This document shows positions 1-18,139 of a stretch of 64,000 bases of DNA, piece by piece (the first letter of the stretch is position 1; the number at the start of each line of letters is the position of its first letter). This DNA is from Bacteroidaceae bacterium (GTDB lineage Bacteria > Bacteroidota > Bacteroidia > Bacteroidales > Bacteroidaceae). The position numbers and the translations under genes are program-made. Where the stretch lies: NCBI GenBank assembly GCA_017651245.1, contig JAGCDQ010000050.1, positions 23,532 to 87,531 of the forward strand, written 5' to 3'. The notes below the pieces were generated by a model, which did not search any database, was not told where the DNA came from, and saw only the letters and a list, made by a program, of their open reading frames with translations.

Positions 1-2008
1 CGCCGTAAATAGGTGAAATGTTCGTGCCTGAAGTGATTTCACCATAAAACATACAGTTCATCACCATGGTGCGCAAATCGCTTCTTGTCGAGGAGAAGCT
101 ATTATAACCCACAATACCTGCACCCCAAGTATTGCCACTAACCGTTGCAAAACTATAACAGTTGATAACACGTGAGCTGCCATCAAGCCGACCTACGATA
201 CTACCGGCATTGGTGCCACTGATAGTACCGCTCTTTACGCCACAGTTATAGATGCGTGTGTCACCGCTTGCTTCATTGCAGATTGCCCCAACATTAGTAC
301 CACCACTGATAGAGACGTTGTCAAGGATCACGTTGTTAATCGTACCACCATTGACACTATTAAACAATGGTTTAGTGAGTCCACTAATAGTAAATAATCC
401 ACCATCAAAAGTGCCAGAGAAATTACTGATATCACCTGTATAACTGCTGGCATCGAAACTAGCGGTGACTTTACAGTCGTCGGTCGCCATCATATTATTC
501 AAGTCACCCACACTACTGATGTTAAGAGTAAACCTCACACTCATTTCACTTGGGCAAGACTCATCTTTTCCATCTTCTTTGGCGATGACCTTAATAGTAA
601 TTACTCCACTACTATTAGTTAAAGAAAATGGTGCCGTATAGTGCGTGCTATTGGTTGATGGCGAGCTCCCATCAAGTGTGTAATAGAAATTACCCAAGCC
701 TGTTATGGAAATCTCGTTACCATTACGGATTATAGTTGGACTAAGAGTTTTAGCAGTAAAAGAAGAAGACACGATATTTTCACATCTATTACTACTATAA
801 TAAGAAACAGCCCGAATGATTGTACTTGAATTCTGAACGAAAGGCTCAGAATAAAGCGTCCCATTCGTCTTACTCGGTTCCGTTCCATCCGTTGTATAAT
901 AAATGGCCGCCCCTTCTGATGTAATAGTAATCTCATTTGTACACTCGTCAGTGACTGTGATAATGGGGTCTGGTGGTGTTAAGGTTGTTGGTTCAATTGC
1001 TTTCGAAGCTACCTCTGTAAGCACCACTCCATAACGTTCCACGACAACTTTGAGAATTCCTGATGATTCAGCAGCATAAGTACCGGAATCTATGATAGGA
1101 CTTGATGCTGTAGGATCCGCTTGTGTACCATCACCAAATTCGTAACGTATATTGTAACCTGCAGGTAATCCATTATTTTCTGTAATAGTAACCATACCAT
1201 AATTATCATCGTTGATGGTAGGAGCTTTAAGTAAATTAGAATGGAAAGACCATAGAGGCGTTCCAGAAGAATAAAACTGTATCAAACCTGGTCTGTCTTC
1301 TCCTGGTCGTGGAATTGTCGAATTACTAGTATTAGACCATGTCAGCCATGCCCTGTCAGCACCCTGTGCACTATTAAATGAATAGCCCGACGTAGGGTTC
1401 ACATTGTTCAGTCCTGGATATGGTGCTATTTTGTAAGGGCTACTACTATTATACAAAACGAGGTAGGTAAAATTGACATTACTAGGTATATCAGCAAGCC
1501 ACACATCTCGGTCACCATATGCCTCCTTCTCTCGTATAACTACATACTTGTTCAGTTTAGGATTAATAAGCTGGATAGTATTAGGTTCTGAGGTGGCAAT
1601 ATTCTTAACGACCCAATGGGAATAAGTGTTATCAAAAGGGCCGTATTTGACTCCATTTTTATCAACTTCATTCACTGATACATCATTGGAAGTAGTCAGA
1701 TACTGATTTCCCGTTGTACTATTAACTGTAACAGATGGCCAAAGATACCAATTACCGTTATTGTTTTTGATATAATAGACTCCGTCAGGCACTTTAGGTG
1801 TGGTCTGTCCCCACACATTCACGCCCATCAACATCAACATCAAAAACAGGAGTGTTCGGAGAACATAAGTTCCTTTAAAATAGGTTCTCAGTTGGGAAAA
1901 ACTTTTTTTCCAGTTAGGAAAATATTTTTTCTCAGTTAGGAAATAAAAAAATCCCATCTTCATTTCTATCTTATCATTCATATCGTATGTCATATCTTTC
2001 TTCTTCAT
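1..2008 (-). CDS. Secreted GLUG/chitobiase-C-domain surface protein, C-terminus outside window
   Basis: The minus-strand frame is open from an ATG at 2008 to the window edge, giving about 669 residues with the end missing. A hydrophobic segment at residues 50-65 (LRTLLFLMLMLMGVNVWGQ) looks like a signal peptide. Residues 70-230 resemble a ricin-like beta-trefoil region (GVYYIKNNNGNWYLW). Two or three chitobiase/hexosaminidase C-terminal-like modules follow (IYYTTDGTEPSKTNGTLYSEPF, FYYTLDGSSPSTNSTHYTAPF). The last third is GLUG-like (FDGGLFTISGLTKPLFNSVNGGTINNVIL). The start overlaps the stop of the giant gene by ATGA, so it is probably the last or near-last gene of the fimbrial operon. The start is uncertain: in-frame ATGs lie at 1993, 1981, 1963 and 1957, and residues 19-46 are encoded by a tandem repeat. 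Role inferred: adhesive or glycan-binding cell-surface protein. A T9SS domain would lie outside the window. Confidence 0.8.
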   Translation of the reverse strand, partial: MKKKDMTYDMNDKIEMKMGFFYFLTEKKYFPNWKKSFSQLRTYFKGTYVLRTLLFLMLMLMGVNVWGQTTPKVPDGVYYIKNNNGNWYLWPSVTVNSTTGNQYLTTSNDVSVNEVDKNGVKYGPFDNTYSHWVVKNIATSEPNTIQLINPKLNKYVVIREKEAYGDRDVWLADIPSNVNFTYLVLYNSSSPYKIAPYPGLNNVNPTSGYSFNSAQGADRAWLTWSNTSNSTIPRPGEDRPGLIQFYSSGTPLWSFHSNLLKAPTINDDNYGMVTITENNGLPAGYNIRYEFGDGTQADPTASSPIIDSGTYAAESSGILKVVVERYGVVLTEVASKAIEPTTLTPPDPIITVTDECTNEITITSEGAAIYYTTDGTEPSKTNGTLYSEPFVQNSSTIIRAVSYYSSNRCENIVSSSFTAKTLSPTIIRNGNEISITGLGNFYYTLDGSSPSTNSTHYTAPFSLTNSSGVITIKVIAKEDGKDESCPSEMSVRFTLNISSVGDLNNMMATDDCKVTASFDASSYTGDISNFSGTFDGGLFTISGLTKPLFNSVNGGTINNVILDNVSISGGTNVGAICNEASGDTRIYNCGVKSGTISGTNAGSIVGRLDGSSRVINCYSFATVSGNTWGAGIVGYNSFSSTRSDLRTMVMNCMFYGEITSGTNISPIYG
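1887..1952. repeat. Three 22-bp tandem units, TTCC/GGAA-type periodic array
   Basis: Three consecutive 22-bp units start at 1887, 1909 and 1931 with the pattern yCAGTTrGGAAAwaattttt. They match the unit type at 42680-42789 in length and core. The array adds exactly 66 bp, so it is translated in frame as part of the N-terminal extension of the leftmost gene if an upstream start is used. Confidence 0.75.
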
Positions 2009-5000
2009 TTCACCGTAATCTTTTTGTTATACTTGCCACCTGCAGCACGGATGATGTAAACACCTGTATTTGGTATTTGAGTTTCGATGGTTTCACCTGG
2101 CTGGATGGTGAACGAAGCGATGGTCTGACCGCCAGTATTGATGATAAGCACGTCGGTCGCATCTTGGAGTGAAGACTCTACACCAACAAGGAGTTTCTGT
2201 GTGTAGAATCTCAATTCGCCACCAACTTCTCCCTTGGTCGGGTCGTGATCCTCGAAAGCGAATGATGTGTCACTCATATCGAAGACGATGCGTTCAGCCA
2301 TTCTTCTCTTAGCACCATTACCCGTAGATGCCTCAACAAAGTATGGACGGAAGGCATCCACCTTGACGGCATCACCCTCTGCTGGCACCTTGTCGTAACT
2401 GCCACCATCCGATGCAAGCACATAGCTGTTCGTTCCAGCTTCCAACTCCATATTCAGATAACTTGGCATAAAGGCATATTTGTCTTGTTGCACACCTGTA
2501 GCACCATCACTTACTTCAATCGTGGCATTCTCAGCCGATGCAAACGTAATCACCTGCTTGGCAAGATCCTTGTCAACTTTCGACCAGCCAGCGGTATGGG
2601 CAGGGCTAAAGTTGCCACTCAAGTCGAATTCATAGTAGGTCGCACCTGGGAATCCAATGATGTATGGTATGCCTGATGTTAACCGGGCATAATCATTGTA
2701 TGTACGCGAATCGTTATAATATGTTTGGTATGTGTCATTGTTGGCATCCTTGAGGTTATGACCCGCCTTCGCCTCATAATAGTAATCCCAGAGGAAGGTG
2801 TTGGTCACCGTCTTGTCATCATCAGCAGCAGTGCCCGTTGGGTACTCAAAGTTTGCTGTATAAACCTTATTGTCTGACGAGAGGGTTCCTCCTTCCTTGA
2901 ACTCACGCAACCAGTACTCATGGCCCACTTTGGTCTTCGAAGTCTTATCGACAGATGCGCTACCACTATAGAAGTGGGTGATCTCACCCTTCACATTCGT
3001 AGTGACGATGTCGGCAGTGAATGGCAGGCTGACACCATCCCATCCCTTCTCAATATCCACGAATTTGTCAGGAGCGCGCTGGTACCACATACGCTTGTCA
3101 CCCGTGAATTGGTATTTAATCGGTGCGTTAAAGTCATGCTTGTCCACCAGGAAGTGGTCGAGCGTGGAGATGTAGCCATCACCTGACTTCTGTACCCAGT
3201 GACCCGACATCTGGTCATAATTTGAACTGCGGTCCCATTCAGCTACAGTGCGGTAAGTCTCCTTGCCTGCCACATAACCCTCACCAATGGCATCACCTTC
3301 CTCATATGCAAAGTCATGTAATTTGGCACTAACCACGTTGGCAGTCTTCAGAGAAGCGGTCAATGGTGCCTCGGAATCGGTGCTCTTTGCTGCTGTGTAA
3401 ACGAGGAGGTTCTTCGTAAGATTTACATTCTGGAATGCCGTAAGGCCGCCATCGTCAAGCAGCGGAGGATAGAAGGCGCCACCCTCTATATTGTTGTATG
3501 GTGCCGATGTTTGTAATCCAACCTTATAACCATTAGCCACTACATCGCCGTTACCTCCCGTAAAGTCGATAGCCGTCATACCCTTGTGGGCAATCTTGGT
3601 AGCATCACCATTCATCGTCTGAGCAAAGACAGCATTTGAATTAAAATGAGTCATCTGCATCTTTCCGCTACGGAAGTAAGCTGGTGCACGATAGACGCGA
3701 TTACTGCCTTCAGTGGTCAATAGACGTTCGTTCGCCTTGTTGATGATGGATGGCAAATCTTGATGCGGACTTCCTTCCACATAGCCATAAGTCAGCGTCT
3801 GTCCAAAGAAGAGGTAATCGTCTGGCCAGATAGGTGCCCAAGTGACAATCTTGTTACCATCGGCATCCAGGTCTCCACTTTCCTGACGGCGGATATTATA
3901 ACCCTCTGGAATGGTGCCATCGGCATAGCGGAAGTCACCATCGTAGAAACGATGCTCCACATAACCCAATTTAGGTGTCTCAGCGGTACCTTGAGCGGTA
4001 CCTTGAGGAGTGTAATAGGTATAAGTGGCAGGATAGTACGACGTGCTGGTGACATTTTGAGTGCCAGTCTCATTCGTAGGCAACGTACCGTCAACATTTG
4101 CAGGGAAGTACTGATATGACTTGCCAGATGTGAGTCCACTACCATCATAATATCGCTTGCCAAGATAGAAACCATTTAAGTTATAAGTCAGTTCACCGTC
4201 ATAGAATGCCTTGTCAGACATCTTGCGAGCATAATTGGCAGCAGAACCATTATCATTATAGAGCGCTGCATTGCTTTCTGGATAGTAACAGTTCACTACT
4301 TGTGTACAGCCTGGATGTTCAGGATCATTTGGATTGCCAAATACGGCATTCACCTTCGAAGCACCATCAGGCAGTGCGGTTGCATCCGACTTCACCCAAC
4401 AGTTCTCCACGAAACCATCACCAGCATCAGCCACACCAGCCGAAGTAAACGAGCCTGTAACGCCCAGGTTATAGACATTACCACAGAGTTTACCAAAGAG
4501 CGACGAGGTAAGACCACTGATGGTGTGACCATCACCATGGAGATTACCACCGAAACATGGATCCGTATCTTCTATGCCAGCAGCAATAGAAGTGCGAGCA
4601 GGAGATCCTTCTGGCACAGAGCCGTCTATGTCGGTGCGCAGAATGATATCAAGGTTCTCAGCACCTTTGACATGACTGTCTAGAGGAGCATGACCTACAA
4701 AGGTCCCCGATTTGATCAGACCATTTTCATCTAACTCTGACTCCGATGGAGTGAGCAGACTCAAGTCGAAGAGGTTCTTCAGTTCATCAAGACCATTCTT
4801 GTCCTTACGTGGGTCGTCATTGGACAGAGATGAATAGTCATTGACGTATATCTTGCATGGACGATCCACATCAGCACGATCAATGTATAAGTGGTTCTCC
4901 TTATAACGCTCCATGATGTCACCCAAGTCGTGGTAGTTGGCCACGCGAACAGGCACACAGTTGGAGTAAGTCTTACCAAGGTAGGTCTTCGAGTAGAAGG

Positions 5001-8000
5001 CGATGTAATGATCCATGTTCTGATACCAATAGACAGGAGTGCTGTTGTTGACGAATGGTACACCATTACGATGGTGGTCAGCATCATTCTTGTTGGAATA
5101 GAGTTCCCAACCATTGATGAGCACCTCATAAATACCCGCTCTTACTTCTGGACGATCCAGACCCACGGCACTGCCTGGGAGCACGATAGGTGGTTCGTTG
5201 AGCGTTCCAATAGAAGGTGCACCGCTTTCCAACTGCAAGTGAATATTCACCACATGTAGTTCGTTGGTTAACTTGATGTCGCCATTATCACCATTCTCAT
5301 AATAAGTATATTGATACACCACCGTGATGACCTTCTCCGTGGTCAAATCTCGGATGTCACTCTCACGGTTCACGTAAAGCGTTGTCGTCTCCGTAGGCTC
5401 CTGACCCTGAATGGTGAAGTATTGCTGGTCATCAATCAAGTCATTATTATATTTACTCTCGTCGATGCGGTTTCCTTCTTTGACTTCCGTACTACCTTCA
5501 TTATGTTTCTCTAAGCAATAATACGTGGTCGTACCTGGTGTCAAGTCTGTTACTTGTTTCACCTTACCTGGATTAGCCGTATAAACATCCTCATCCACCA
5601 CCTGCCCTCTACCATAAGGCTCTCCGTTATCGGTAAAGTTATCAATGGCAATGTAGGCTACCGTTGCCGTAGAACTGGTTTCTATACGGGCATAGTAACG
5701 CTTGTCATTACGAATGCTTTCAAACTCAGTTCTTGAAAGTGTAGCACCTTTTGTGAAGGTTCTTGTTGTACCATCGGTGAAGTGCAATTCTCGTGATGTA
5801 TCCTCCTTGTACACGGCACTATACTCTACAGGCACCAAGTCGCTGTAAGGCGAATGATAGGCCTGCTCGGTTGTCTTAATTTGAGTCTCATCATAGAAAT
5901 CCAAGTAGTTCGGATCAGCAAAGAGGTCCAAGGCATCGTAGTTGAAAATGAACTTATCTTCACCTTCTTCGTCTATGCGGTCGCTCTCGGACAACGAGCA
6001 CCATGATTCCTTCGCACTATAGTTATTAGTGGCGAAATATTTCTGTCCGCCATATTTTCCTGTCTCGGTACAGATATAAGCCTCCGTAAAGACTGCATCA
6101 ATCTCATCAGCAGGCACATCTGTATAGGTGGTCTTCAAAGCTGCTATCTCACCTGCTGTCAACAAGTCACCATTCAACAAGTACTTTTCTTCTGCCAATT
6201 TCAAAGAACCGATGCAGACGAATGCTTTAGCGAAGGCACTCTGAACACTCTGAGCAGATGATGAAAGTGTATTATACTCTGCCAATGGGATAGCCGTACC
6301 TGGATTTACCGTCTTGTTGGTGCCTTTATAAGTATAGTTTACCGTTTCAGTAGCCACGTATGCCTCATCCATCTTCTCTTTACCGTAACCAGATTCCGTT
6401 TTATCATAAACGGCCTTAGTGACGATGTCGCCTTCCGCATAATCACGCTGACCATAGACATCCGTCGTTTTGGGGCTGAAGGTAGGACCTTCAACATAAG
6501 AATTCTTACCTGTAGTAAGAGCATCATATGCCACTTTCGTTATTCTGGTATCAGTTGTGCTATTTCCTGTATAGGTGCTCGCACCAGAAACAGGACTATA
6601 CCAGTCATCCCACACCTTTGGCGTATCCATATCGAAGGTGAGCACATAACCTGAGTCATGACCAATGTTGTTCGACATGCGGAACAAGTCATCAACAACT
6701 GCATTATACGTCATAGCCTGACCCTGTTCGTTTTCAAAGGCATTACCTTCAACATCAGTGATGGTGTGGGTAGCTGTCTTGAACGTATTAATGTCTGTCG
6801 GCAGCATGACATACTCCCCGACGGCATACTCTGTACCATCAATCTTACATGGCTTGCAATTGACAACCGTCTCTGGCACAAACAGCTTCTTATCAGCCAC
6901 AGAGAGGTTATTCCAATCCCACCAAGTGATGACATCGTTCAACTGATACATGTCGGAGTTATTATTCACCCATGCCTTACCGTCATTACCGTTGGTACCA
7001 ATCTTCTTACCCTCTTCGAAATAGTAGGCATATAGGTTGGGCTTCACATTCAACAATTTCAGGCGTCCGTTAGAAGCGGCTGTGATGGTGAGTGGTAGGT
7101 GTACATCCTTTGAATAGGCATTGGCACTACCCGTATAAGCTGACACCACCTGATCGTAAACATATACCGAACCTTTCACATACCAATAGTGAGCCTTAGA
7201 ATAGGGGTCTTCACCGATGATATAGGCATTGTTAATAGGATAACAATCGTCAACGATACGCTTATTGCTGGGGTGGATAAAGTTACCAGAGGTCTCGATG
7301 TCCTGTTCCTTATATAGGTTTTCTTGCGTATCACCACTGATAATATAACTACCCGAACTTGTCCAATCACCCTCTTGATCTGAAGAATAACGGTACTGCT
7401 TGTAGGTACGTGCTTCATCACGCAATTCTTGACCACTTATTATTTTTTGATTGTTATATTCCGAAAGAATCACATTTTTCTTATTGGGATAGAATAATGG
7501 CACGCGGTGCTCATTCTTGGCATAGACGAAACCACCACCTTCGGTCGCCCGCTTCACATTGATCAGGTCAAGCTCTATCACACCTGTGATATAGCCGTAC
7601 TCTTTTTCCTTGTTAGGATTAGTCTCCGTCTTCTCTGTAGTCAGTTCAAGGAACACGCCTGAAGCCAATGCCACCTGATTGGGACTTGTACCATAGTTAC
7701 GGTCGTTACCAGTAGGGCGTGCTTTCTTATAACTATAGTAAGTCTGTCCTGAAACCGTATGTCCGTCACTATCAACGTATGGATCACCAAACTTCACGTC
7801 ACTGGTCAGGTTGCCAAGGTAGTTCACGACGCTGTAGATACCAAAATAGTTGCCATGCTCGGCTTCTGCTCCTGTATCTGTAGATATCATAGAGCGTTGT
7901 TTGTTCAATGATAACTCGCCCACACGGTTAATGGTGTAGTCAATATCCTCACCGACCTCTGCCACACGGTCCTTGGCACCTTGCAGCACCATACGGCTAC

Positions 8001-11000
8001 CATACACGCCACAGAAATCAGCACGCTGAATGGTGTTCAGCAAACGACCTGCATAGATGGAACAGAAACCGAATTGCTCCCAATTGGCAGCATTGAAGCC
8101 GTCTTTATTTTTCAGTTTTTCAAAGTCATCTTCCTTTACACGTTGACCATTCTCGTAGAATTCCCCACCAATATAAACACCATATTTTGTGACATTATCC
8201 ACAATCTTCTCAGCCACACCTCCTTTACAAACATACTCCAACTGGAAGTAGGCACGTTCACGATTCGACAAATCTCGGTATTCCTCCAACGTAATACGGC
8301 TGGACAGTCCGTAATAGTCGGTACCATAATTGGTGACGTTCAATTCACGATAACCTTCCACCACCGACAGATTACCGCCACCATAAAGACCACCTGTATG
8401 TTCCGTACCCACAGTGATAAAGTCACGATGATAGCAATCGTAGAGCGTCGCTGTAGTATTACCAAATACGGTTGTGGCATTGGCATAGTGAGTATCACTA
8501 TTAGAAGACACGTTACCACCACCGAACACTGCATTGTGGATAAGAACACCACGCTCTTTCGTATCGTCATTTGTAGTTTTATCACCAGTATACAAGTCTT
8601 TCCAGTCTAACTTGTCTTTCGACAACATATTCAGTTCGTCTGTCCCCACATAATCAAACTGTGGATGGGAATTAAAACCTGATGCAGCCTTCACCTGCAG
8701 ATATGGCGATACAACGACCTTACAGTCTTCTATGAGTTTATCTTCATTTCCGTCATTATAATAATAGTAGTAGTGGTTAGGAGAACCCGTCTCTGTTTTT
8801 CGTGACAATTGATTGTCATAGCCCATGCTATAGACATAGCCCAAATCACCACCACCAAAGACATTACCATAATTATAGCCTTCTCTTACCGCCTCCGAAG
8901 TACCTACCTCACCACCATGAATAAAGACTTCAGTTTGACCAAACACATAGCCATCAGTGTAAAGGTCATTAGAACCACCGAATCCTAAGACATTATAACC
9001 CTTACCACCGCCAAAGATATTACGCAACACGTGACCATTATACATCTCCACGTGCGTCTTGCCGGCTCTATATATGCCTTCAAATTCACGCACATGGTTA
9101 ACATCACCACTCTCTTTTGTTGAACCACGTCCAACGGCAGCAATCTCTCCTCCACCATGCACACTACCACGGATGATTCCACCCCATATTTTGATATTGG
9201 TCTCATCCACGTTACTCTTATCACTATAACCTCCACCAAAAATATTGCCATAATCTTTCAGACGACCGATACTATCGCTCACCGTCCATGTCTCGTCATT
9301 CAATTTCTCAACAAAGTCATCATTCAAGTAATCATAACCAATACGACCATTGTTGAGCACCACGTTAGCTGTGCCAAACACAGCACCGCCACGGCCTCCC
9401 TTGCCTTCTTCACCCTCACCGCCACCATAGACGTTACGCTGGATGGCAGGCACACCATTGAAAAAGCCATATTCAGTTCCATTCGTATTGGACTCACTGG
9501 TCACATAGTCCATTGCAGCCTGTTTGTTTGCTGCTGTCTGATCCTCCCGAATACCGATGATGACATTAGCTTGAGCTGGTATATCGCCTGTAGTAGAGGC
9601 ATTCAGATCAGCATCCACTTCAATCATGACAGGCTGATTATTTTTATCCTTGACAACTTCACCGTCCTTCATAAGAGTAGTAGTAGTCTTGTGTTTTCCC
9701 ACACTACCCATATAGCCACCACCAAACACGTTACGAACCACACCTGCAGCAACATAAACAGTGGTAGAGGCCTCGAATGGCTGACCGAAATCATCTGTCA
9801 AACCACCATACCGGTCAAACACTGACCCCACCGAACCTGCTGCCACAATATCCTTTTCCACATTTCCACCCAGCAACGCAATATAAGTGGTACCATTCAC
9901 ATCACCACTTCGGTTTTTATTCGCAGAACCCATGCCGCCACCGTATGCATAGCCACCAGTAACTTGGAATCCTGGTGTATATCCAGCAACATAAGATCCC
10001 ACGATGGCACCTTTATTGATGATGACATTGGTGTTGTATTTCTTTCCGTCATGTCTTGGCTTGGCTAAAGCATTGGCAAGTCCGTTATCAGTATAGGTAT
10101 AATGGTTTGTACCAACTATGTATTCATCGGCTATCTTCAGCTTGGCCTCTCCATATTCTTGCTTCGCCGTTGCCACATTAGACACACGGCCATTCTGACC
10201 ACCCCCATAGACCATATAGACTTGAGTTCCCTTGTTAAGATTCACCTCTGTATATTGTGACCAACAGTTCTCACCAAAACCAGCGCCATAGACAGAGGCC
10301 ATGTAACCTTTTTCAGTGTCAGACCATACAGGCGAATTGATGTTCACTCTTCCATAAAGTGTACGGCGCGCATTATTGTTGCCCCCATAGATGGATCCGA
10401 CACGACCTTCGACACTGCTCCAGGTCACATTGGTCTCGTAGACATCACAAACAGTATTATTGTCAATACCATATGCACCTCCGAAGAGTTTATTGAGTTT
10501 AATCGTCGATTTCGCAGGTACATTCACCACCGTACGGCGAGTGAAGCCCTCTTCGTAACTGCCACCATAGACTGCATTAATCTGACCACGAGGCAAGTCA
10601 ATAATGGCAGACACTTTGTCAAGAGCCGCTTTCTCTGTTGCATCAGGCGTCGCCGTTGGAGCCACGTATGTTCTCATGCCCAATCCACTCCAAGCTCCTG
10701 CACCGAACACTTCCATACTAGAATAATTAGTCATGGTTTGTGGAATATCAATGAGAATGTAACTACGATCCTGCATGATATCTCGGTCACTGTCACCTGG
10801 ATAACCCTGACCCGAACCATAAATCTTAGTGACTTTGTTGTTGGAGTTACTCAGCAGTGCATTACTCAGCGTCGGACGGAAATTGACAAAAGCATTGTCC
10901 ATACGAGGCTTGGTGTAGCCAGACTTAGCGATGCCATCAGCATTAAAGAATTCACGATATTCACTATCCGTATAATCGTATGTACCATAACAACCTCCAA

Positions 11001-14000
11001 AGAGACCAAGCGCATGTCCTTGAGCATATTCCATATAAGCGGACACCTCCTTGGCGGCATCTTGACCTGGCAGTGTCAATCCTGCCACCTCATTGCGTAT
11101 CCTATTAGTAAAGTCTGCTGTATTGAGAATCCTTCCACCAAGGTCATTACCGCCATACACATAATCTCGAACAAATGGAAATCCTCCTGTCACTGTGCCA
11201 TTATCCTGAATCTGACGACCCACATAGGTTTCTGTATGACCCAGAATATCGGCATTACAAGAGCCTGCAAAAGAATTGAACAGACGTCCATTACCCAAAT
11301 TCACAATGGTATTGCCGCAGATGGGACCTAAGAAACCACCACCATAAATGAATTCGCAATCAGCCATATCGGGATGGTTTTCTGTACTCGTCTTTGACAC
11401 ACCTGCCTGACCACCTTTCAGATTGACAGTACAACTATAGTTCGCATCATTTTCATATTGCTTTCCATTAAAAGCGTATTTACCAGTAGCTTCATCATAC
11501 GTATAATCGTCCGCAGTAGATGTACCAGTGGACTTTCCAATAACACCTTCCTCACTACCACCAAAAATCTGGAAGGTATATCCCTTGTTCAGATTAATGG
11601 TAGTGCTACCCCATATCTCGGTACCCTTACCTTTACCACCACCAAATACATTGAGGGCAGAACCAAGCACGTCCATACCCTGACGTCCCAGGATAACACC
11701 CGTACGACGCTCCTCGATGTTATATTTCATCTCATCCTGCTCCAACACATTGTCACCATAGAGTACGGCCTCACCTTCACTATCTTCCGTCACCTTGTCG
11801 AAGAGCACGTTGGGATCCATCAAGGCGGCATTGATGTTGATGATGACATTACCATTCACATGACCACTACTATAACAGCCACCATAAATATTACCTCCCA
11901 GCAAACGACGATTCAAGTCATCTTCCGTACTCTTGCCATCCGTAGGAATAGTTGTCGGAGTCTCGTCTTTTTCATTCGTACCCACCTTGACCACATTCCA
12001 TTCCAACAATTTTGACTTGTCATTTGGATCCTTCCAGCGCATAGGTCGGATTTCCAAGCCAGAGAGGTTCAGGGTCAACTTATTGCCTATCTTACCCTCT
12101 GCAGCATCATCAGGAGAACCGATGAGGCCACCATCATAGGCTGCATTCAATTTCGTTTCTCCATCATATTGCTCTGGCACATAAGCATTATTACAACCAC
12201 CCACCAACTTATTATAGATAATAACATTATAGTGGAAGTCAACCGTATTCATACCATCAGTCATGACACTACCCACGTTGCCACCACAATAGAACGAACC
12301 AAAATAAGTACTATAATTAACATAGTCTGGGTCAAAAACCACACGAGGCTTGATATCCATCTCACAGCCTTTCATATAGGTCTTCATCTGGTCGGACTCC
12401 GTCAAGTCAATTTTACTGAAAGGATAGCTTGTTCCATTGATGGTCACCGATGCTTTGAATTGCTTCAACACATCTTCGGTTATCATATTCTCACCGTTAC
12501 TGCCAAGGAACACGTTGTCAGCATAAACGTAAGCACCAATCTTCAACTCGGCTCTTGCCTCGCTACTCGACGATTGCAAGGTGGCACTATTTCCACCACA
12601 ATAGACAGAACCGCCAATAATGGTAGGCTTCGATTTCGTTCCAATCAGTCTCACAGATACCGCCTCGGCATTGGGACGATAATCGTTGAGAGCCTCAACG
12701 GAACTCTTCCCTGAAGGCGTTGGATAATAGAAATCACGATAGAGATCGGATGATTGCAAGTCGGAATTATCCGTATAGTAATAAGATCCGTTACCACCAC
12801 CATAAACATTGCCTTTGATGCTGCTATGGATACCGACGGCATTGCCACCATAAATCATACCAGAAATATCGTTACCTCCATAGACATTGTCGATTTTTCC
12901 ACCACCAATATGCACACGAGCAGCATAGCCTGCAGGACAGTCAACACCTTCAATTTTTTCCGCTGTAATAGTGCGCTTATCTGGATTCACATTGGCCATA
13001 CGACAACCGCCATAGACATTGCCAACCTCCATATCATCTGAATTGACAGCCAAGAAAATACCATTCTCGTGGGTCATATCACCAGCATTACCGCCAGAGT
13101 AGAGGTCTCGGATTTTACCGCTCAACAGCCCCCAAGTAGGTCGGATGTCCATTGCCACCTTGTTATTTCCACCAAAGACACGGCCAAACTGGTATGCTGC
13201 ACTATTGGCATGTATCTGCGTGGTGTTGATGCCCATTGCCTTCAAGCGAGTTCCTGCTGCATCATTCAATATATCCGTTCCACTTGCATCCGTGATGCTT
13301 GTCGTCACATCACTCGTATTGTCAATACAGATGGTAGTGTTCTTCTTTACCGTAGCAGCATTACCGCCACCATATACATGGGCAATGGTGCCGCCATTCA
13401 GTTCAAGATAAGCCTTGTCGATTTCTGGCAGGGCATCGACAGCGGCAGCCACCTCTGTAGTTGTTTCGTTCTCTGTTTTCGTTACCCTATACTTTCCTGC
13501 ATTCTCGCCATCAGTAATTTTTGTGTAGTCATAATCACCATTGCCTCCACCATAGAGTTGACCGATGAATATCTTGTAAGGTTGTGTCGTAGATGCCGAC
13601 TGACCTTCTCCTGTCGTCACTTTTCTTTCAGATGTCGTTTGGATAAAAGCATTATACGTATAGTCAATAGCTGTTGTCTTCGGGGTAAATGGAGTGGTCG
13701 TTGACTCGTTATTCACATGTTTTATGATTCCCGATATATCGTTACCACCATAGACATAATTGATGAGGATGTCACCACTCATGCGTGCACCATCGATATT
13801 AACGAAGGTTTGCCCATCCACATTCGCCATACGGGCACCACCAAAAACACTACCATTGATGTCGCCTGCATACACGGTAACAGTCGTATTACCCATCATA
13901 TCACCTGCATTACCACCACCATACACGTTTCCACCAATAGTGATTTGTGCCTGCATCAGCGATACAGACAAACAAAGCAGTAATATGGTCAATATCTTTT

Positions 14001-14004
14001 TCAT
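2005..14004 (-). CDS. Giant GGN-repeat (solenoid-like) secreted surface protein, T9SS-type C-terminus
   Basis: This 3999-residue protein starts with a clear signal peptide (MKKILTILLLCLSVSLMQAQ). Residues about 25-2010 hold roughly forty turns of [VIL][FY]GGG-x(N/x) separated by 25-60 residues (NVYGGGNAGDM, SVFGGARMANV, YVYGGNDISGI, RVFGGNNKVAM), as expected for a beta-solenoid. Residues about 1905-1965 and 2545-2720 carry a second repeat type (AYVATETV, AFVCIGSLKL, AYICTETGKY). Residues about 3145-3250 are GLUG-like (FGGNLHGDGHTISGLTSSLFG). The last 75 residues end TGVYIIRAAGGKYNKKITVK, which resembles a type A T9SS sorting domain. It lies downstream of the fimbrillin genes and couples by ATGA to the next gene. 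I infer a long cell-surface or fibre-associated adhesin. I know of no established function for this repeat type. The ORF is intact, without frameshifts. Confidence 0.9.
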   Translation of the reverse strand: MKKILTILLLCLSVSLMQAQITIGGNVYGGGNAGDMMGNTTVTVYAGDINGSVFGGARMANVDGQTFVNIDGARMSGDILINYVYGGNDISGIIKHVNNESTTTPFTPKTTAIDYTYNAFIQTTSERKVTTGEGQSASTTQPYKIFIGQLYGGGNGDYDYTKITDGENAGKYRVTKTENETTTEVAAAVDALPEIDKAYLELNGGTIAHVYGGGNAATVKKNTTICIDNTSDVTTSITDASGTDILNDAAGTRLKAMGINTTQIHANSAAYQFGRVFGGNNKVAMDIRPTWGLLSGKIRDLYSGGNAGDMTHENGIFLAVNSDDMEVGNVYGGCRMANVNPDKRTITAEKIEGVDCPAGYAARVHIGGGKIDNVYGGNDISGMIYGGNAVGIHSSIKGNVYGGGNGSYYYTDNSDLQSSDLYRDFYYPTPSGKSSVEALNDYRPNAEAVSVRLIGTKSKPTIIGGSVYCGGNSATLQSSSSEARAELKIGAYVYADNVFLGSNGENMITEDVLKQFKASVTINGTSYPFSKIDLTESDQMKTYMKGCEMDIKPRVVFDPDYVNYSTYFGSFYCGGNVGSVMTDGMNTVDFHYNVIIYNKLVGGCNNAYVPEQYDGETKLNAAYDGGLIGSPDDAAEGKIGNKLTLNLSGLEIRPMRWKDPNDKSKLLEWNVVKVGTNEKDETPTTIPTDGKSTEDDLNRRLLGGNIYGGCYSSGHVNGNVIININAALMDPNVLFDKVTEDSEGEAVLYGDNVLEQDEMKYNIEERRTGVILGRQGMDVLGSALNVFGGGKGKGTEIWGSTTINLNKGYTFQIFGGSEEGVIGKSTGTSTADDYTYDEATGKYAFNGKQYENDANYSCTVNLKGGQAGVSKTSTENHPDMADCEFIYGGGFLGPICGNTIVNLGNGRLFNSFAGSCNADILGHTETYVGRQIQDNGTVTGGFPFVRDYVYGGNDLGGRILNTADFTNRIRNEVAGLTLPGQDAAKEVSAYMEYAQGHALGLFGGCYGTYDYTDSEYREFFNADGIAKSGYTKPRMDNAFVNFRPTLSNALLSNSNNKVTKIYGSGQGYPGDSDRDIMQDRSYILIDIPQTMTNYSSMEVFGAGAWSGLGMRTYVAPTATPDATEKAALDKVSAIIDLPRGQINAVYGGSYEEGFTRRTVVNVPAKSTIKLNKLFGGAYGIDNNTVCDVYETNVTWSSVEGRVGSIYGGNNNARRTLYGRVNINSPVWSDTEKGYMASVYGAGFGENCWSQYTEVNLNKGTQVYMVYGGGQNGRVSNVATAKQEYGEAKLKIADEYIVGTNHYTYTDNGLANALAKPRHDGKKYNTNVIINKGAIVGSYVAGYTPGFQVTGGYAYGGGMGSANKNRSGDVNGTTYIALLGGNVEKDIVAAGSVGSVFDRYGGLTDDFGQPFEASTTVYVAAGVVRNVFGGGYMGSVGKHKTTTTLMKDGEVVKDKNNQPVMIEVDADLNASTTGDIPAQANVIIGIREDQTAANKQAAMDYVTSESNTNGTEYGFFNGVPAIQRNVYGGGEGEEGKGGRGGAVFGTANVVLNNGRIGYDYLNDDFVEKLNDETWTVSDSIGRLKDYGNIFGGGYSDKSNVDETNIKIWGGIIRGSVHGGGEIAAVGRGSTKESGDVNHVREFEGIYRAGKTHVEMYNGHVLRNIFGGGKGYNVLGFGGSNDLYTDGYVFGQTEVFIHGGEVGTSEAVREGYNYGNVFGGGDLGYVYSMGYDNQLSRKTETGSPNHYYYYYNDGNEDKLIEDCKVVVSPYLQVKAASGFNSHPQFDYVGTDELNMLSKDKLDWKDLYTGDKTTNDDTKERGVLIHNAVFGGGNVSSNSDTHYANATTVFGNTTATLYDCYHRDFITVGTEHTGGLYGGGNLSVVEGYRELNVTNYGTDYYGLSSRITLEEYRDLSNRERAYFQLEYVCKGGVAEKIVDNVTKYGVYIGGEFYENGQRVKEDDFEKLKNKDGFNAANWEQFGFCSIYAGRLLNTIQRADFCGVYGSRMVLQGAKDRVAEVGEDIDYTINRVGELSLNKQRSMISTDTGAEAEHGNYFGIYSVVNYLGNLTSDVKFGDPYVDSDGHTVSGQTYYSYKKARPTGNDRNYGTSPNQVALASGVFLELTTEKTETNPNKEKEYGYITGVIELDLINVKRATEGGGFVYAKNEHRVPLFYPNKKNVILSEYNNQKIISGQELRDEARTYKQYRYSSDQEGDWTSSGSYIISGDTQENLYKEQDIETSGNFIHPSNKRIVDDCYPINNAYIIGEDPYSKAHYWYVKGSVYVYDQVVSAYTGSANAYSKDVHLPLTITAASNGRLKLLNVKPNLYAYYFEEGKKIGTNGNDGKAWVNNNSDMYQLNDVITWWDWNNLSVADKKLFVPETVVNCKPCKIDGTEYAVGEYVMLPTDINTFKTATHTITDVEGNAFENEQGQAMTYNAVVDDLFRMSNNIGHDSGYVLTFDMDTPKVWDDWYSPVSGASTYTGNSTTDTRITKVAYDALTTGKNSYVEGPTFSPKTTDVYGQRDYAEGDIVTKAVYDKTESGYGKEKMDEAYVATETVNYTYKGTNKTVNPGTAIPLAEYNTLSSSAQSVQSAFAKAFVCIGSLKLAEEKYLLNGDLLTAGEIAALKTTYTDVPADEIDAVFTEAYICTETGKYGGQKYFATNNYSAKESWCSLSESDRIDEEGEDKFIFNYDALDLFADPNYLDFYDETQIKTTEQAYHSPYSDLVPVEYSAVYKEDTSRELHFTDGTTRTFTKGATLSRTEFESIRNDKRYYARIETSSTATVAYIAIDNFTDNGEPYGRGQVVDEDVYTANPGKVKQVTDLTPGTTTYYCLEKHNEGSTEVKEGNRIDESKYNNDLIDDQQYFTIQGQEPTETTTLYVNRESDIRDLTTEKVITVVYQYTYYENGDNGDIKLTNELHVVNIHLQLESGAPSIGTLNEPPIVLPGSAVGLDRPEVRAGIYEVLINGWELYSNKNDADHHRNGVPFVNNSTPVYWYQNMDHYIAFYSKTYLGKTYSNCVPVRVANYHDLGDIMERYKENHLYIDRADVDRPCKIYVNDYSSLSNDDPRKDKNGLDELKNLFDLSLLTPSESELDENGLIKSGTFVGHAPLDSHVKGAENLDIILRTDIDGSVPEGSPARTSIAAGIEDTDPCFGGNLHGDGHTISGLTSSLFGKLCGNVYNLGVTGSFTSAGVADAGDGFVENCWVKSDATALPDGASKVNAVFGNPNDPEHPGCTQVVNCYYPESNAALYNDNGSAANYARKMSDKAFYDGELTYNLNGFYLGKRYYDGSGLTSGKSYQYFPANVDGTLPTNETGTQNVTSTSYYPATYTYYTPQGTAQGTAETPKLGYVEHRFYDGDFRYADGTIPEGYNIRRQESGDLDADGNKIVTWAPIWPDDYLFFGQTLTYGYVEGSPHQDLPSIINKANERLLTTEGSNRVYRAPAYFRSGKMQMTHFNSNAVFAQTMNGDATKIAHKGMTAIDFTGGNGDVVANGYKVGLQTSAPYNNIEGGAFYPPLLDDGGLTAFQNVNLTKNLLVYTAAKSTDSEAPLTASLKTANVVSAKLHDFAYEEGDAIGEGYVAGKETYRTVAEWDRSSNYDQMSGHWVQKSGDGYISTLDHFLVDKHDFNAPIKYQFTGDKRMWYQRAPDKFVDIEKGWDGVSLPFTADIVTTNVKGEITHFYSGSASVDKTSKTKVGHEYWLREFKEGGTLSSDNKVYTANFEYPTGTAADDDKTVTNTFLWDYYYEAKAGHNLKDANNDTYQTYYNDSRTYNDYARLTSGIPYIIGFPGATYYEFDLSGNFSPAHTAGWSKVDKDLAKQVITFASAENATIEVSDGATGVQQDKYAFMPSYLNMELEAGTNSYVLASDGGSYDKVPAEGDAVKVDAFRPYFVEASTGNGAKRRMAERIVFDMSDTSFAFEDHDPTKGEVGGELRFYTQKLLVGVESSLQDATDVLIINTGGQTIASFTIQPGETIETQIPNTGVYIIRAAGGKYNKKITVK

Positions 14005-14047: not shown

Positions 14048-15157
14048 TTAATTATAATCTAATACCGGTGGGTTATCCAAATCTGGGTCTGACAATACAT
14101 TGAGGAAAGTGGGATTCACCGTCAGATTGACGGTTTTCCATTCACCTCGCGTTATATATCCATTAGGCAGTTTATTCTCTACCTTGCAATCTTCACGAAT
14201 CAAGTTTCCCTTCCTGTCATAAACATCATATGTACAAAGAAGAACTAATGAGTTGATGTTGGTAGGTGCTGGTAATACCATCATCTTCTTTATTTCTTCC
14301 GAATTGGGCTCTGTTAAAACCTTTGCAGTAGTCGTTAATTCTAACCCCTCATGTTCAAAAAATGTAACATTATTATTCCCTTCTCCTTTAAAATATGTAA
14401 TATTGTCGATTGGCTTATCATCGGAAGGTTTCAAAGTAATTGCGGCTGAATAGGAGGAAGGCACGTCTTTTAGTTCCAGCTTCTTCAATCTAATTGTACG
14501 CAATTGGCTATAAGTTTCATCTATCTTAATGGTGAAACTAAGTGCGCCATAGAAATGGTGCAACAGCATATAAGCAAAATTCTGATTTTTAGGCTTTCCT
14601 TCGTATTTATAACTACCTGGCTTAAAATTGGCAGATACCGCTACTTGTTCAGATTCAGCCTGCTCAACACCAACGATGAGACAGATATCTTTATCCGAAA
14701 CAGCCTCTAATCCTTCCAACGTCATAATTGCACCATTAGCATAATAACTGCTGCTTCCTGCTAAATAATCAATGGATGAACCTGTTACTGCAGAGGAGGG
14801 TGTGAAACCATAAATATAATAGGTTTCGCCCTCTTGTATCTTAAAGGCAGAACTCCATTTTGTTGTCGTTGCACTATATCTGAATGTAGCTTTAGCCGCA
14901 CTTGGTTGTTCCCCGATGGTTGTCATATAGGCTGTAATGGGTGCGTCTGTATAAAAATGATAGTCTGAAGTGGCACGTGTCCCTAAACTTTCTCCGTTTC
15001 CATAGTTCTGTGAATAGGCAAACAGCTGGAGCGTTTCCTCTTCTTGCCGATCCTGCTCGGGGTCTTCAGAGCACGCAAACAGCAGACAGACCATCCCAGT
15101 CATGAGAAGTCCTGCCAGCATTTTGCTGTACCATTGTTCTATTTGTTTCCTATTCAT
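14048..15157 (-). CDS. Fimbrillin-like lipoprotein (369 aa)
   Basis: A lipoprotein signal precedes a lipobox at LLFAC29. A Thr-Arg-Ala site (GTRATSDY, R61) follows the first predicted strand, the usual place where type V pilins are cut during maturation. The size, the beta-rich body with repeated GETYYIYGFTPSS-type strands, and the operon position suit a Mfa1/FimA-like or Mfa_like_1 protein. I chose the ATG at 15157 because the longer frame begins with GTG inside the upstream gene; the chosen start lies 22 bp past that gene's stop. It ends 43 bp before the giant gene. It could be a minor or tip pilin. The exact family is not certain from sequence alone. Confidence 0.75.
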   Translation of the reverse strand: MNRKQIEQWYSKMLAGLLMTGMVCLLFACSEDPEQDRQEEETLQLFAYSQNYGNGESLGTRATSDYHFYTDAPITAYMTTIGEQPSAAKATFRYSATTTKWSSAFKIQEGETYYIYGFTPSSAVTGSSIDYLAGSSSYYANGAIMTLEGLEAVSDKDICLIVGVEQAESEQVAVSANFKPGSYKYEGKPKNQNFAYMLLHHFYGALSFTIKIDETYSQLRTIRLKKLELKDVPSSYSAAITLKPSDDKPIDNITYFKGEGNNNVTFFEHEGLELTTTAKVLTEPNSEEIKKMMVLPAPTNINSLVLLCTYDVYDRKGNLIREDCKVENKLPNGYITRGEWKTVNLTVNPTFLNVLSDPDLDNPPVLDYN

Positions 15158-15179
15158 ACTTATTCTCTTGTATTCTTTT

Positions 15180-16391
15180 TCACCAATTATACAACTCACG
15201 GTTGTCTGTCACTTCTGTCCAAGGCTTCACAAAGACGGTCAGCACATCCAATCCTCCAGAACCATAGTAGGCGTAGACAATCCAAGAGTGATTGCGACTA
15301 AAACCGAGAGGCGTCACCATGGAGAAAGTCTTCGTCTGCTCGGTTCCCTCCTCCCCCATCTGATAAGAAATGGTGCCACGAAGCATTTTATTAGTCTCAC
15401 GAAAATAGAAAGGACCTATCTGGGTGAGTTCTTTTTTATCAGGTTCAGACACCGTTCCATTCACACCACCATCAATCTTATCTTCATAATCTTGTGCTGT
15501 GGAGAAAACCAATGGGTCATAGACATAATTCGAAGGGTCTTCACTTTCTTTAATGGACGAAAGCGGATCTGAGCTGTCTATCAATGTTGTTACACCAGAT
15601 ACGTAAGTGCTCCCTATTCTATATGCGTTTCCATCATTTCCCAAGAAGAAATATTCTTCGGTTGGAAAACCATAATCAACTTCCTCCACTTTACCATTCA
15701 AGGTAAGGCCTGTAATAATCAGTTTCTCGCTCTCTTCGACACCCTGCTGCTGACTAAATACAAAACGTACCTTTGATACAGCTCGCTGAAGTTGCACTTT
15801 TGCCATACCTTCATAACTATCTGTTCCTATTCGGAGGACAGGATTCGTACCCACCACTTCCTGATTCAGCAAAACACCCGACATGGGCAGACCTGCTGTG
15901 GGCACAGACGACACTAACGTTGTCGTTGTCGTTCCAAAGTAATTAGTACCTATCATCGCGGCATCAAGTGTTGCACGAGTGGTCTCTCCGTCAAACGTCA
16001 GATTCACCGCAGCCGTATTAGCAGCCACATAAACATCCACATTGGGTTTGGTGGCTGCGTCTGCAAACTCCTTGCTCACAGCCATCTGATAAACCTTACC
16101 ATCGGCTGTTGGCAATTCCGTTGGGCATAAATAGCCCACCAATTTCCCATCGTCATGCGCAAACACCCAAATCTGGAGCGAAGTGATGGCACTCTCACCC
16201 TCAATCGGATTCACCAACAGATCTCCCGCACGAGTGGGCATCGGTCTTTCAGGAGCATAGACATAGAAAGTGATGACTGTCGGACGTTCTTCCACCCCAT
16301 TGTTATCATCATGATGAGAAGAACAAGCGGTCAGGAGCAGCATCAGCATGCTGCCCAACAACCATCCAATATGTTTTGTCTCACACTTCAT
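15180..16391 (-). CDS. Fimbrillin-like lipoprotein (403 aa)
   Basis: MKCETKHIGWLLGSMLMLLLTAC is a lipoprotein signal with the lipid-modified Cys at 23. The first strand VITFYVYAPERP is followed by a Thr-Arg-Ala site at R54 (MPTRAGDLL). The next stretch, SAITSLQIWVFAHDDGKLVGY, is typical of FimA/Mfa-type fimbrillins, as is the C-terminal pattern NHSWIVYAYYGSGGLDVLTVFVKPW. It is therefore the most recognisable pilin-like member of the locus. The ATG at 16391 is preferred over 16448, which would overlap the upstream gene by 40 bp; the chosen start leaves a 17-bp gap. It probably forms part of a type V pilus, as a shaft, accessory or tip subunit. Which of these cannot be read from the sequence. 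Confidence 0.8.
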   Translation of the reverse strand: MKCETKHIGWLLGSMLMLLLTACSSHHDDNNGVEERPTVITFYVYAPERPMPTRAGDLLVNPIEGESAITSLQIWVFAHDDGKLVGYLCPTELPTADGKVYQMAVSKEFADAATKPNVDVYVAANTAAVNLTFDGETTRATLDAAMIGTNYFGTTTTTLVSSVPTAGLPMSGVLLNQEVVGTNPVLRIGTDSYEGMAKVQLQRAVSKVRFVFSQQQGVEESEKLIITGLTLNGKVEEVDYGFPTEEYFFLGNDGNAYRIGSTYVSGVTTLIDSSDPLSSIKESEDPSNYVYDPLVFSTAQDYEDKIDGGVNGTVSEPDKKELTQIGPFYFRETNKMLRGTISYQMGEEGTEQTKTFSMVTPLGFSRNHSWIVYAYYGSGGLDVLTVFVKPWTEVTDNRELYNW

Positions 16392-16408
16392 CGCTTTAAA
16401 CTCCTCTT

Positions 16409-18115
16409 TTAATCTAATTGTATATAGACAGGTTCTGTCTGTATCCATTTATTGACCAACTGCACCCCGATTTCCAAACGAGGCGATAACAGATTAGGCA
16501 TTACATTATAGGCACGCTTTAATGAGTTCTCTTCATCGAATTTCATCTTCACCTCTGTCACACGGTCTTGCGTAAACACACGATCCTTGTAAGCTATCTC
16601 AGTTGACTTATCAGCAGGATCCAATTTACCTATCAAGTAAAACTTTGTGTTGGGATAGATGATACCATCTTTACCCTCAAATGATTGTCCTGTTTTGTTT
16701 TCAAACTCAAGGATAATGGTCACTTTCTCGTTATTATGCGACTGCAAGACCAAAGTATTGGAAATGTGACCACTGACATTATTATCATAGATAAATCGAA
16801 GGTCAAAATCTGTACTTTCTTCACCTTCTGGTTCTATTGGTTTAAAGTCATAACCCACAGTATGCTGCCCGCCAATGATGATACCTGTCAAAGGCATAGT
16901 TGCTTGGTAATAGGTGATGTCGTTTTCCTTACTATCCTTCAAGATCTTACCATCAGCTGCTTCCAACGTCATTTTCAATCGAGCTACCCCATACTGGATA
17001 GGGTCTTTCAGTGCCACCGCTTTGGTATTGCCACTCACAGGACTTCTGCCGGGATAGTTGGCTAATACTTGATTCCAAGTCTCCGTTGACGTTGAGCTAT
17101 AGACACTCTTGGCTACCTCTTCATTCGATGTGTACAATTGACTGTTACCAAAATAGTAAAGCTCTGCAGGATAAGTAAAGCGAGCAATGGAATTGATGGC
17201 TACCTCCGTAGTGGCAATAATCTGCGGAACGAAAGCACCCTTGATATTATTCAACATCGCTTCGCTGTCCCATTTGAGCGCAGCAGCACCATCTGGCAAA
17301 CCTATGCTGGCAGGATAGTTGCCAAGACTGGGAGTGCCAATGGCAGTAAGAATGGCGGTCTTAATATCGCTATCGTCCAACTTCTCTATTTCAGTCTTCA
17401 ATTCATTCACGTAAGCGGTTACACTGGCTGAAGAACCTGCCAAAAGAGCATTGCTCTGATTGCCCTGACCCGTGAAGTTCAGGTAGAAGGCACGCAGTTT
17501 AGAATCAGTCGTCGTTGACCAACCTGTTGCACGAGCAATGGTCGTCATATAATCTGCAATGGTCTGTGCACCTGTGGGAGCACTTGTTCCCGTGTACATC
17601 TGTTCCAGTTCAAAAGAGATATTGGCAGGAAACATGTCAGTTGGATAAGTTGCTTTGAGTGTACCATTATAAGCCTTATTGGTCATCTCTGTATTCGTTG
17701 ATGAAACAGAAGGAATGGCTCTACCATAAAACAGCACAGCGTTCGTGCCCCTCATGAAAGAACAGTTGTTATAATAGTAAAACCAACTAACCGACTTTGG
17801 GTAGTTATCTTCTGCCAGTCCACTCACAAAGAAGGCTTTCGGTCGATCGGTCTTTTGCACCCCATTGGCTGGATTGCTTACCGCAAAGGGAATGATCATG
17901 ACATCCTGCATGCCACGATAGGGAGTGCTTTCAATCTGTAGCACCTCATTGGCCATACGAGTCTGAGGTTGGGCAGATTGCGACAAAGAGAAAGCTACAC
18001 TGACATCGACACGGTCCTCCACTCCGTCATTGGGGGTATCATCAGACATACACGAACTGAGTGCCTGCACTACCAGCACAGGCATCAGCATCATGTATGT
18101 TGTCCATCTTCTCAT
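16409..18115 (-). CDS. Fimbrillin-like lipoprotein paralogue D (568 aa)
   Basis: This is the most diverged of four paralogues in the operon. The lipobox is ALSSC22, and a Thr-Arg-Met site lies at R53 (PQTRMANEV). Shared signatures in order: YRGMQDVMIIPF, GTNAVLFYGRAI, GYPASIGLP-type segment (YPASIGLPDGAAALKW), YPAELYYFGNSQL, KDPIQYGVARLKM, LTGIIIGGQHTVGYDFKP, and IYPNTKFYLIGKLDP. The C-terminal strand is weaker than in its relatives (IGVQLVNKWIQ). It lacks the acidic calcium-loop insert of paralogues B and C. The start is the ATG at 18115; the longer frame begins with TTG. Inferred role: subunit of a type V-like pilus. Confidence 0.75.
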   Translation of the reverse strand: MRRWTTYMMLMPVLVVQALSSCMSDDTPNDGVEDRVDVSVAFSLSQSAQPQTRMANEVLQIESTPYRGMQDVMIIPFAVSNPANGVQKTDRPKAFFVSGLAEDNYPKSVSWFYYYNNCSFMRGTNAVLFYGRAIPSVSSTNTEMTNKAYNGTLKATYPTDMFPANISFELEQMYTGTSAPTGAQTIADYMTTIARATGWSTTTDSKLRAFYLNFTGQGNQSNALLAGSSASVTAYVNELKTEIEKLDDSDIKTAILTAIGTPSLGNYPASIGLPDGAAALKWDSEAMLNNIKGAFVPQIIATTEVAINSIARFTYPAELYYFGNSQLYTSNEEVAKSVYSSTSTETWNQVLANYPGRSPVSGNTKAVALKDPIQYGVARLKMTLEAADGKILKDSKENDITYYQATMPLTGIIIGGQHTVGYDFKPIEPEGEESTDFDLRFIYDNNVSGHISNTLVLQSHNNEKVTIILEFENKTGQSFEGKDGIIYPNTKFYLIGKLDPADKSTEIAYKDRVFTQDRVTEVKMKFDEENSLKRAYNVMPNLLSPRLEIGVQLVNKWIQTEPVYIQLD

Positions 18116-18139
18116 CACAAGTTCCCCCAAAATGATGGA

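Follow-up and report, generated by a model that had tools for sequence, protein, structure and literature searches.

A giant predicted solenoid protein with a type IX sorting domain, fixed in a type V pilus locus of Prevotellaceae and relatives: a candidate adhesive end

The subject of this analysis is giant1, an open frame of 3999 amino acids in a 64,000-nucleotide stretch of a Bacteroidaceae bacterium genome (assembly GCA_017651245.1, contig JAGCDQ010000050.1, positions 23,532 to 87,531; hereafter the window). The frame lies on the minus strand at 2005..14004, its stop codon within the span, and comes ninth in a series of minus-strand genes headed by a DUF3575/OmpA-like one; a second giant gene, giant2, follows it. 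We find that giant1 has a fixed place in a pilus locus, that it ends in a type A sorting domain of the type IX secretion system (T9SS), and that its genome has the T9SS translocon SprA. The reading we favor, with moderate confidence, is that Prevotellaceae and relatives build a type V pilus to which giant1 belongs as a very large accessory subunit, forming the adhesive end.

Fold and export of giant1

A first-pass annotation of this DNA, made from the sequence letters, had reported the 3999-residue frame correctly, together with about forty GGG turns in its first 2000 residues. The strict motif [VIL][FY]GG[GNCAS] occurs 27 times, all 27 within that part, and a looser form 35 times, 34 of them there. 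Composition shuffles (n = 1000) gave a mean of 0.31 strict matches and a maximum of 3, so the motif is far above chance and confined as described, yet "about forty" was too high. Across 72 full-length giant1 sequences the strict turns number between 17 and 27 (median 24), and past residue 2200 their median is 0, with at most 1 per sequence. Length is conserved as well, 71 sequences spanning 3787–4584 amino acids. Counts over named loci, here and below, lean to near relatives because only the best 80 of 292 relatives found were kept; nine of the 80 (L080, L081, L082, L086, L110, L115, L122, L123, and L147) were left out of the full-length set, the frame being split or cut. In L147, L080, and L115 the frame is in two or three pieces, for which decay and assembly error are both possible explanations. 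Turn-bearing open frames of 6358 (G025:C18) and 6446 residues (G354:C17) were also seen.

By eye, residues 1–20 (13945..14004) look like a signal peptide with no clear lipobox. The turn-rich part follows, at about residues 20–1900 (8305..13947), and a structure model covering residues 19–850 predicts that the front of giant1 is a beta-solenoid, in agreement with the architecture first proposed. Alignments for the structure work used 48 and 40 of the 72 full-length sequences. On structural comparison the closest match to the solenoid model was antigen 43, with beta-helix lyases and a galactosidase also among the aligned structures. Antigen 43 is a self-associating adhesin; it and the other beta-helix surface adhesins have 6–8% identity, differ from giant1 in their export route, and are not known to belong to a pilus locus. 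A Pfam scan of the whole of giant1 returned no family up to E 1, searches of the PDB with the giant1 sequence and with the solenoid profile returned no match, and the first 1200 amino acids gave none by tblastn against a phage collection.

The middle part, at about residues 1901–2880 (5365..8304), is variable and has no strict turns; identity to the window in 50-residue blocks between residues 2401 and 2850 is 0.25–0.49. Residues 1880–3060 modeled poorly (predicted local distance difference test, pLDDT, 66.6; predicted template modeling score 0.54), with recurring strand-strand-helix stretches. Foldseek with this model returned seven matches under E 0.001, to tandem Ig and cadherin domains, with a query-length TM of at most 0.09 among the matches listed; because the model is so poor, these carry no fold claim. 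When slices of residues 1881–3050 were compared with each other, a single weak repeat pair emerged (1881–1970 with 2737–2808, independent E 5e-4), and the different repeat class that had been proposed for the middle is therefore not established. The most conserved block, at 0.77, is the stretch at about residues 3150–3240 (4285..4557) that had been described as GLUG-like. Pfam Glug had no match in 40 C-terminal parts, and a profile of the region matched 3n6z, a putative IgA1-protease structure, weakly (E 0.023); the label stays unconfirmed.

The T9SS-like C-terminus was confirmed. TIGR04183 matched the last 150 residues at 26.3 bits (cut-off 23), covering the last 58 (residues 3942–3999; 2008..2181), and a type A sorting domain was matched at E 0.01 in 42 of the 45 giant1 C-termini scanned out of the 72 full-length sequences. 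In a search of the own genome the giant1 tail, at 25.5 bits, was one of five places exceeding the TIGR04183 cut-off. The search for a T9SS covered SprA, which all 45 genomes of the genus carry, the own genome included; 44 scored over the cut-off.

A type V pilus locus upstream of giant1

The genes upstream of giant1, all on the minus strand, include both a pilin of the FimA/Mfa kind and, as recognized through its homologues, an Mfa2-type anchor, the combination that marks a type V pilus locus. The pilin, fim422 (15180..16448), matched PF06321 at 28.4 bits (cut-off 21.4), and its profile matched the Mfa3 tip subunit 5nf4 at E 6e-4. The anchor lipoprotein, anch347 (22165..23208), has PF08842 at E 0.1 in 7 of 22 homologues (best 7.8e-8), the window's own copy giving no match. 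The DUF3575/OmpA-like gene at the head of the run (25634..27193; PF12099, E 9e-47) is the single match to that family in its own genome. The earlier description of a fimbrillin operon is borne out. By contrast, giant1 itself lacks what defines a type V pilin, a lipoprotein start and a pilin sandwich fold: it has no clear lipobox by eye, a predicted solenoid front, and no Pfam family.

Directly upstream of giant1 lies fim383 (14048..15199), a small pilin-like lipoprotein gene. Its profile aligned with that of fim422 at 95% over 80 columns (hhalign). Mfa_like_1 was found in 4 of the 31 rows of the fim383 alignment (31 of 82 available), the window's own row not among them; one row, L081:7013-8200, with 17% identity to the window, is another fimbrillin and may be one of the four. 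Profiles of fim383, the anchor, and fim573 (16409..18130), a pilin-like lipoprotein with no Pfam family at trust level, returned nothing under E 0.03 against the PDB.

Half of giant1 finds a match in 21 of the 45 genomes of the genus, at over 1000 bits in 18, and in all 18 of these strong loci a fim383 homologue is directly upstream. All 80 named loci share this arrangement (median gap 10 nt; E no worse than 2.6e-76). Seventy-four of these have at least 7 kb upstream, where the window's models matched fim573 in 63, the anchor in 61, DUF3575 in 55, and fim422 in 53; the gene models used for synteny come from the loci themselves, whose flanks reach 10 kb at most, so that a missing DUF3575 or giant2 often means that the stretch had ended. 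Family-wide, 65 of 399 genomes have giant1, 65 of 398 have fim383, and 62 have both (Fisher p 6e-65). Three genomes had giant1 without fim383 (G181, G228, and G290, the match lying near a contig start in each) and three had fim383 without giant1 (G002, G034, and G375). Order-wide, 7 of 393 genomes match giant1, the own genome included, and the five main matches, which lie in two other families, all follow directly on fim383, with further pilin-like lipoproteins before it. The condition that the first-pass annotation had set for refuting its reading, homologues regularly away from fimbrillin genes, does not hold for these full-length homologues; four lower-scoring turn-bearing matches without recognized pilins are taken up below.

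Prevotellaceae are abundant in the rumen, and to our knowledge how they hold feed or each other there is poorly known. A ruminant mark appears in the record titles of 60 of the 80 named loci (host or stomach names, or RUG and RGIG, which we take to be ruminant isolate codes), the other 20 titles being silent. The locus is present in Prevotella communis E15-14 (L072) and in Prevotella sp. tf2-5 (L101) and tc2-28 (L104), so that a conserved 4000-residue adhesin candidate can be tested in named strains. Literature searches found no paper describing giant1, and we claim nothing wider from them.

The rest of the run consists of fim766 (23278..25578), a large pilin-like lipoprotein that is probably the shaft, and two related pilin-like lipoproteins without a Pfam family, fim635 (20241..22148) and fim685 (18140..20197). 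In one named locus a predicted AAA-ATPase with a PD-(D/E)XK nuclease domain sits inside the pilus run (L083:5891-7450), and similar frames interrupt L092 and L118. One contig, G265:C10, carries two fim383-giant1 pairs (82865-87350 and 115077-120278), about 32 kb apart.

Exchangeable shafts and the place of giant1

In fourteen of the 80 named loci the models of the window's shaft and anchor genes matched nothing; these were called shaft type II, a class set by the absence of window-type matches; for two of them (L113 and L134), with under 3 kb upstream, the call rests on BLAST matches to other type II loci. Among 59 upstream frames over 300 amino acids in 12 type II loci, fim383 included, 45 have a lipobox-like site by a loose pattern, and a few are plainly other genes (e.g., AAA-ATPase-like). 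The pilin-like frames match one another across type II loci but not the window's set, whereas fim383 matches nearly all loci. On a tree of the 72 giant1 sequences (FastTree, local support only), shaft type changes seven times, all seven forced by well-supported branches; shuffled shaft labels gave a mean of 11.3 changes, and 0 of 500 shuffles were as low as seven. These supported changes indicate that the shafts and the fim383-giant1 end have recombined repeatedly. Because at least two sets of shaft genes accompany that end, it behaves like an adhesive tip section with an exchangeable shaft, the shaft genes changing while giant1 stays.

The closest precedent is Mfa5, which belongs to the type V (Mfa1) fimbriae in Porphyromonas gingivalis (PMC7835359, PMC8313007). 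It too is encoded by an accessory gene within a type V pilus cluster, is unlike the pilins and much larger than they are, carries a T9SS sorting domain, and can occur in tandem pairs. According to PMC7835359, no other Mfa protein has a T9SS domain, blocking the T9SS inhibits the export of Mfa5, and immunogold places it at the pilus tip; PMC8313007 describes two mfa5 genes in tandem in some strains and genotypes D and E without the von Willebrand factor (vWF) domain. The first-pass annotation had treated a pilus locus and the T9SS as alternatives, and this was mistaken, since Mfa5 is a T9SS-exported tip protein in a type V cluster (PMC7835359) and giant1 has the sorting domain. The two proteins also differ: Mfa5 has 1228 amino acids with vWF and immunoglobulin G (IgG)-like domains, whereas giant1 has 3999 with a predicted solenoid front and no Pfam match to the vWF domain with metal ion-dependent adhesion site that marks Mfa5, their sequences having been compared through the PDB search with giant1, which gave no match. 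Type V tip pilins with a C-terminal ligand domain, as described in PMC12632263, occupy the place that we propose for giant1, the adhesive end of a type V pilus; they are, however, lipoprotein pilins, whereas giant1 combines a T9SS tail with a predicted solenoid front and lacks a clear lipobox. A T9SS accessory protein in a type V pilus locus was thus already known; what sets this locus apart is a predicted solenoid protein of 4000 residues replacing the vWF/IgG-like protein, with giant2 behind it. The Mfa5 precedent is widened: P. gingivalis is not the only species whose type V pilus loci encode a T9SS substrate.

As we envisage it, Sec would carry giant1 to the periplasm and the T9SS would then take it across the outer membrane, while the pilin lipoproteins would follow the lipoprotein route. 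At the surface giant1 would join the pilus via the small pilins fim573, fim422, and fim383, as Mfa5 joins Mfa1 fimbriae, and may coat, extend, or tip it, as was suggested at the outset. The solenoid would be a long adhesive arm binding another surface, for which plant fibre, feed particles, and neighbouring cells are plausible candidates.

Several observations weigh against this reading. Pilus incorporation, adhesion, the ligand, and the tie to the rumen are each something we infer. No adhesin or carbohydrate-binding Pfam domain was recognized in the whole of giant1, Foldseek with the solenoid model found no solved structure under E 0.001, and with the whole protein as query the sorting domain scored 17.4 bits, below the cut-off. 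Turn-bearing matches at G519:C24, G699:C43, G745:C2, and G025:C18 (E 1e-88 to 1e-9) have no recognized pilin upstream in the stretches examined. Finally, across the 35 loci with all genes, pairwise distances of giant1 correlate with those of fim383 at 0.54 and with those of fim422, fim573, and the anchor at 0.57–0.59, whereas fim383 tracks fim573 and fim422 at 0.87 and 0.89. We therefore dropped the idea of fim383 and giant1 as a uniquely co-evolving pair. These correlations also speak against a simple module of two genes: the small pilins resemble a single block, with giant1 as a slower-changing partner.

Cargo with a type A sorting domain usually ends fixed to the cell surface, and giant1 might be a stand-alone T9SS surface adhesin, fixed by the T9SS sortase and merely co-expressed with the pilus, a lesser possibility but one to be taken seriously given that domain and a divergence not specially tied to fim383. 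A protein of this kind accords poorly with the presence of fim383 beside giant1 in every named locus and its retention through shaft exchange, and Mfa5, with the same domain, sits at the pilus tip (PMC7835359). It is very unlikely that giant1 is a large secreted enzyme or polysaccharide-binding protein for which the pilus locus serves regulation only: the beta-helix lyases and galactosidase among the aligned structures, and the T9SS export of large multi-modular carbohydrate-active enzymes in rumen Bacteroidetes (PMC5831590), point that way, but giant1 has no Pfam family and the 40 C-terminal parts scanned show the sorting tail alone. We give similarly little credence to the idea that both giants together build an S-layer-like sheath or a surface coat that runs along the pilus or cell. 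The reading of giant1 as an accessory pilus subunit also has a more elaborate form, which we find rather doubtful, in which a pair of giant turn-repeat solenoids makes up a modular pilus end on interchangeable type V shafts, a long adhesive fibre extending the pilus, with giant1 delivered by the T9SS and giant2, having no recognized sorting domain, surfacing by another route or by binding giant1.

giant2 and other turn-bearing genes

The giant2 gene starts in the window at 2..2008 (minus strand), shares four bases with giant1, and extends beyond the window to L003:4897, encoding 2880 amino acids in all. Fn3_assoc and chitobiase-type domains lie in its front, with the turn repeats (22 strict turns) behind them. 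A repeat model trained on giant2 alone finds units in giant1 (best independent E 2.6e-8, residues 27–57), so the turn repeat is common to both giants. A turn-bearing giant2 follows giant1 in 16 of the 18 same-genus loci, and the contigs of the remaining two end at or near giant1. None of eight giant2 C-termini scanned had a sorting domain. Eleven aligned C-termini (giant2 and 10 homologues) stop just past a turn-and-strand motif common to them all, and some add a short tail rich in Pro and Thr.

In two loci (L035:8139-11615 and L063:3550-7146; G035 and G007) two genes stand in place of giant2, one encoding a front of 1158–1198 amino acids and the other a turn-rich part of 2162–2222; the tail of the shorter looks T9SS-like by eye, with no NCBIfam match. 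The turn repeat had been considered as a marker of pilus loci and was dropped because of the four turn-bearing matches without recognized upstream pilins. Two of these, at G519:C24 and G699:C43 (L189 and L194), lie near an adenylosuccinate-synthase-like gene, so named by eye. Directly after giant2 is a gene that by eye is thioredoxin-like (L003:4130-4894, minus strand), and 8 of the 18 same-genus loci have a homologue at this position.
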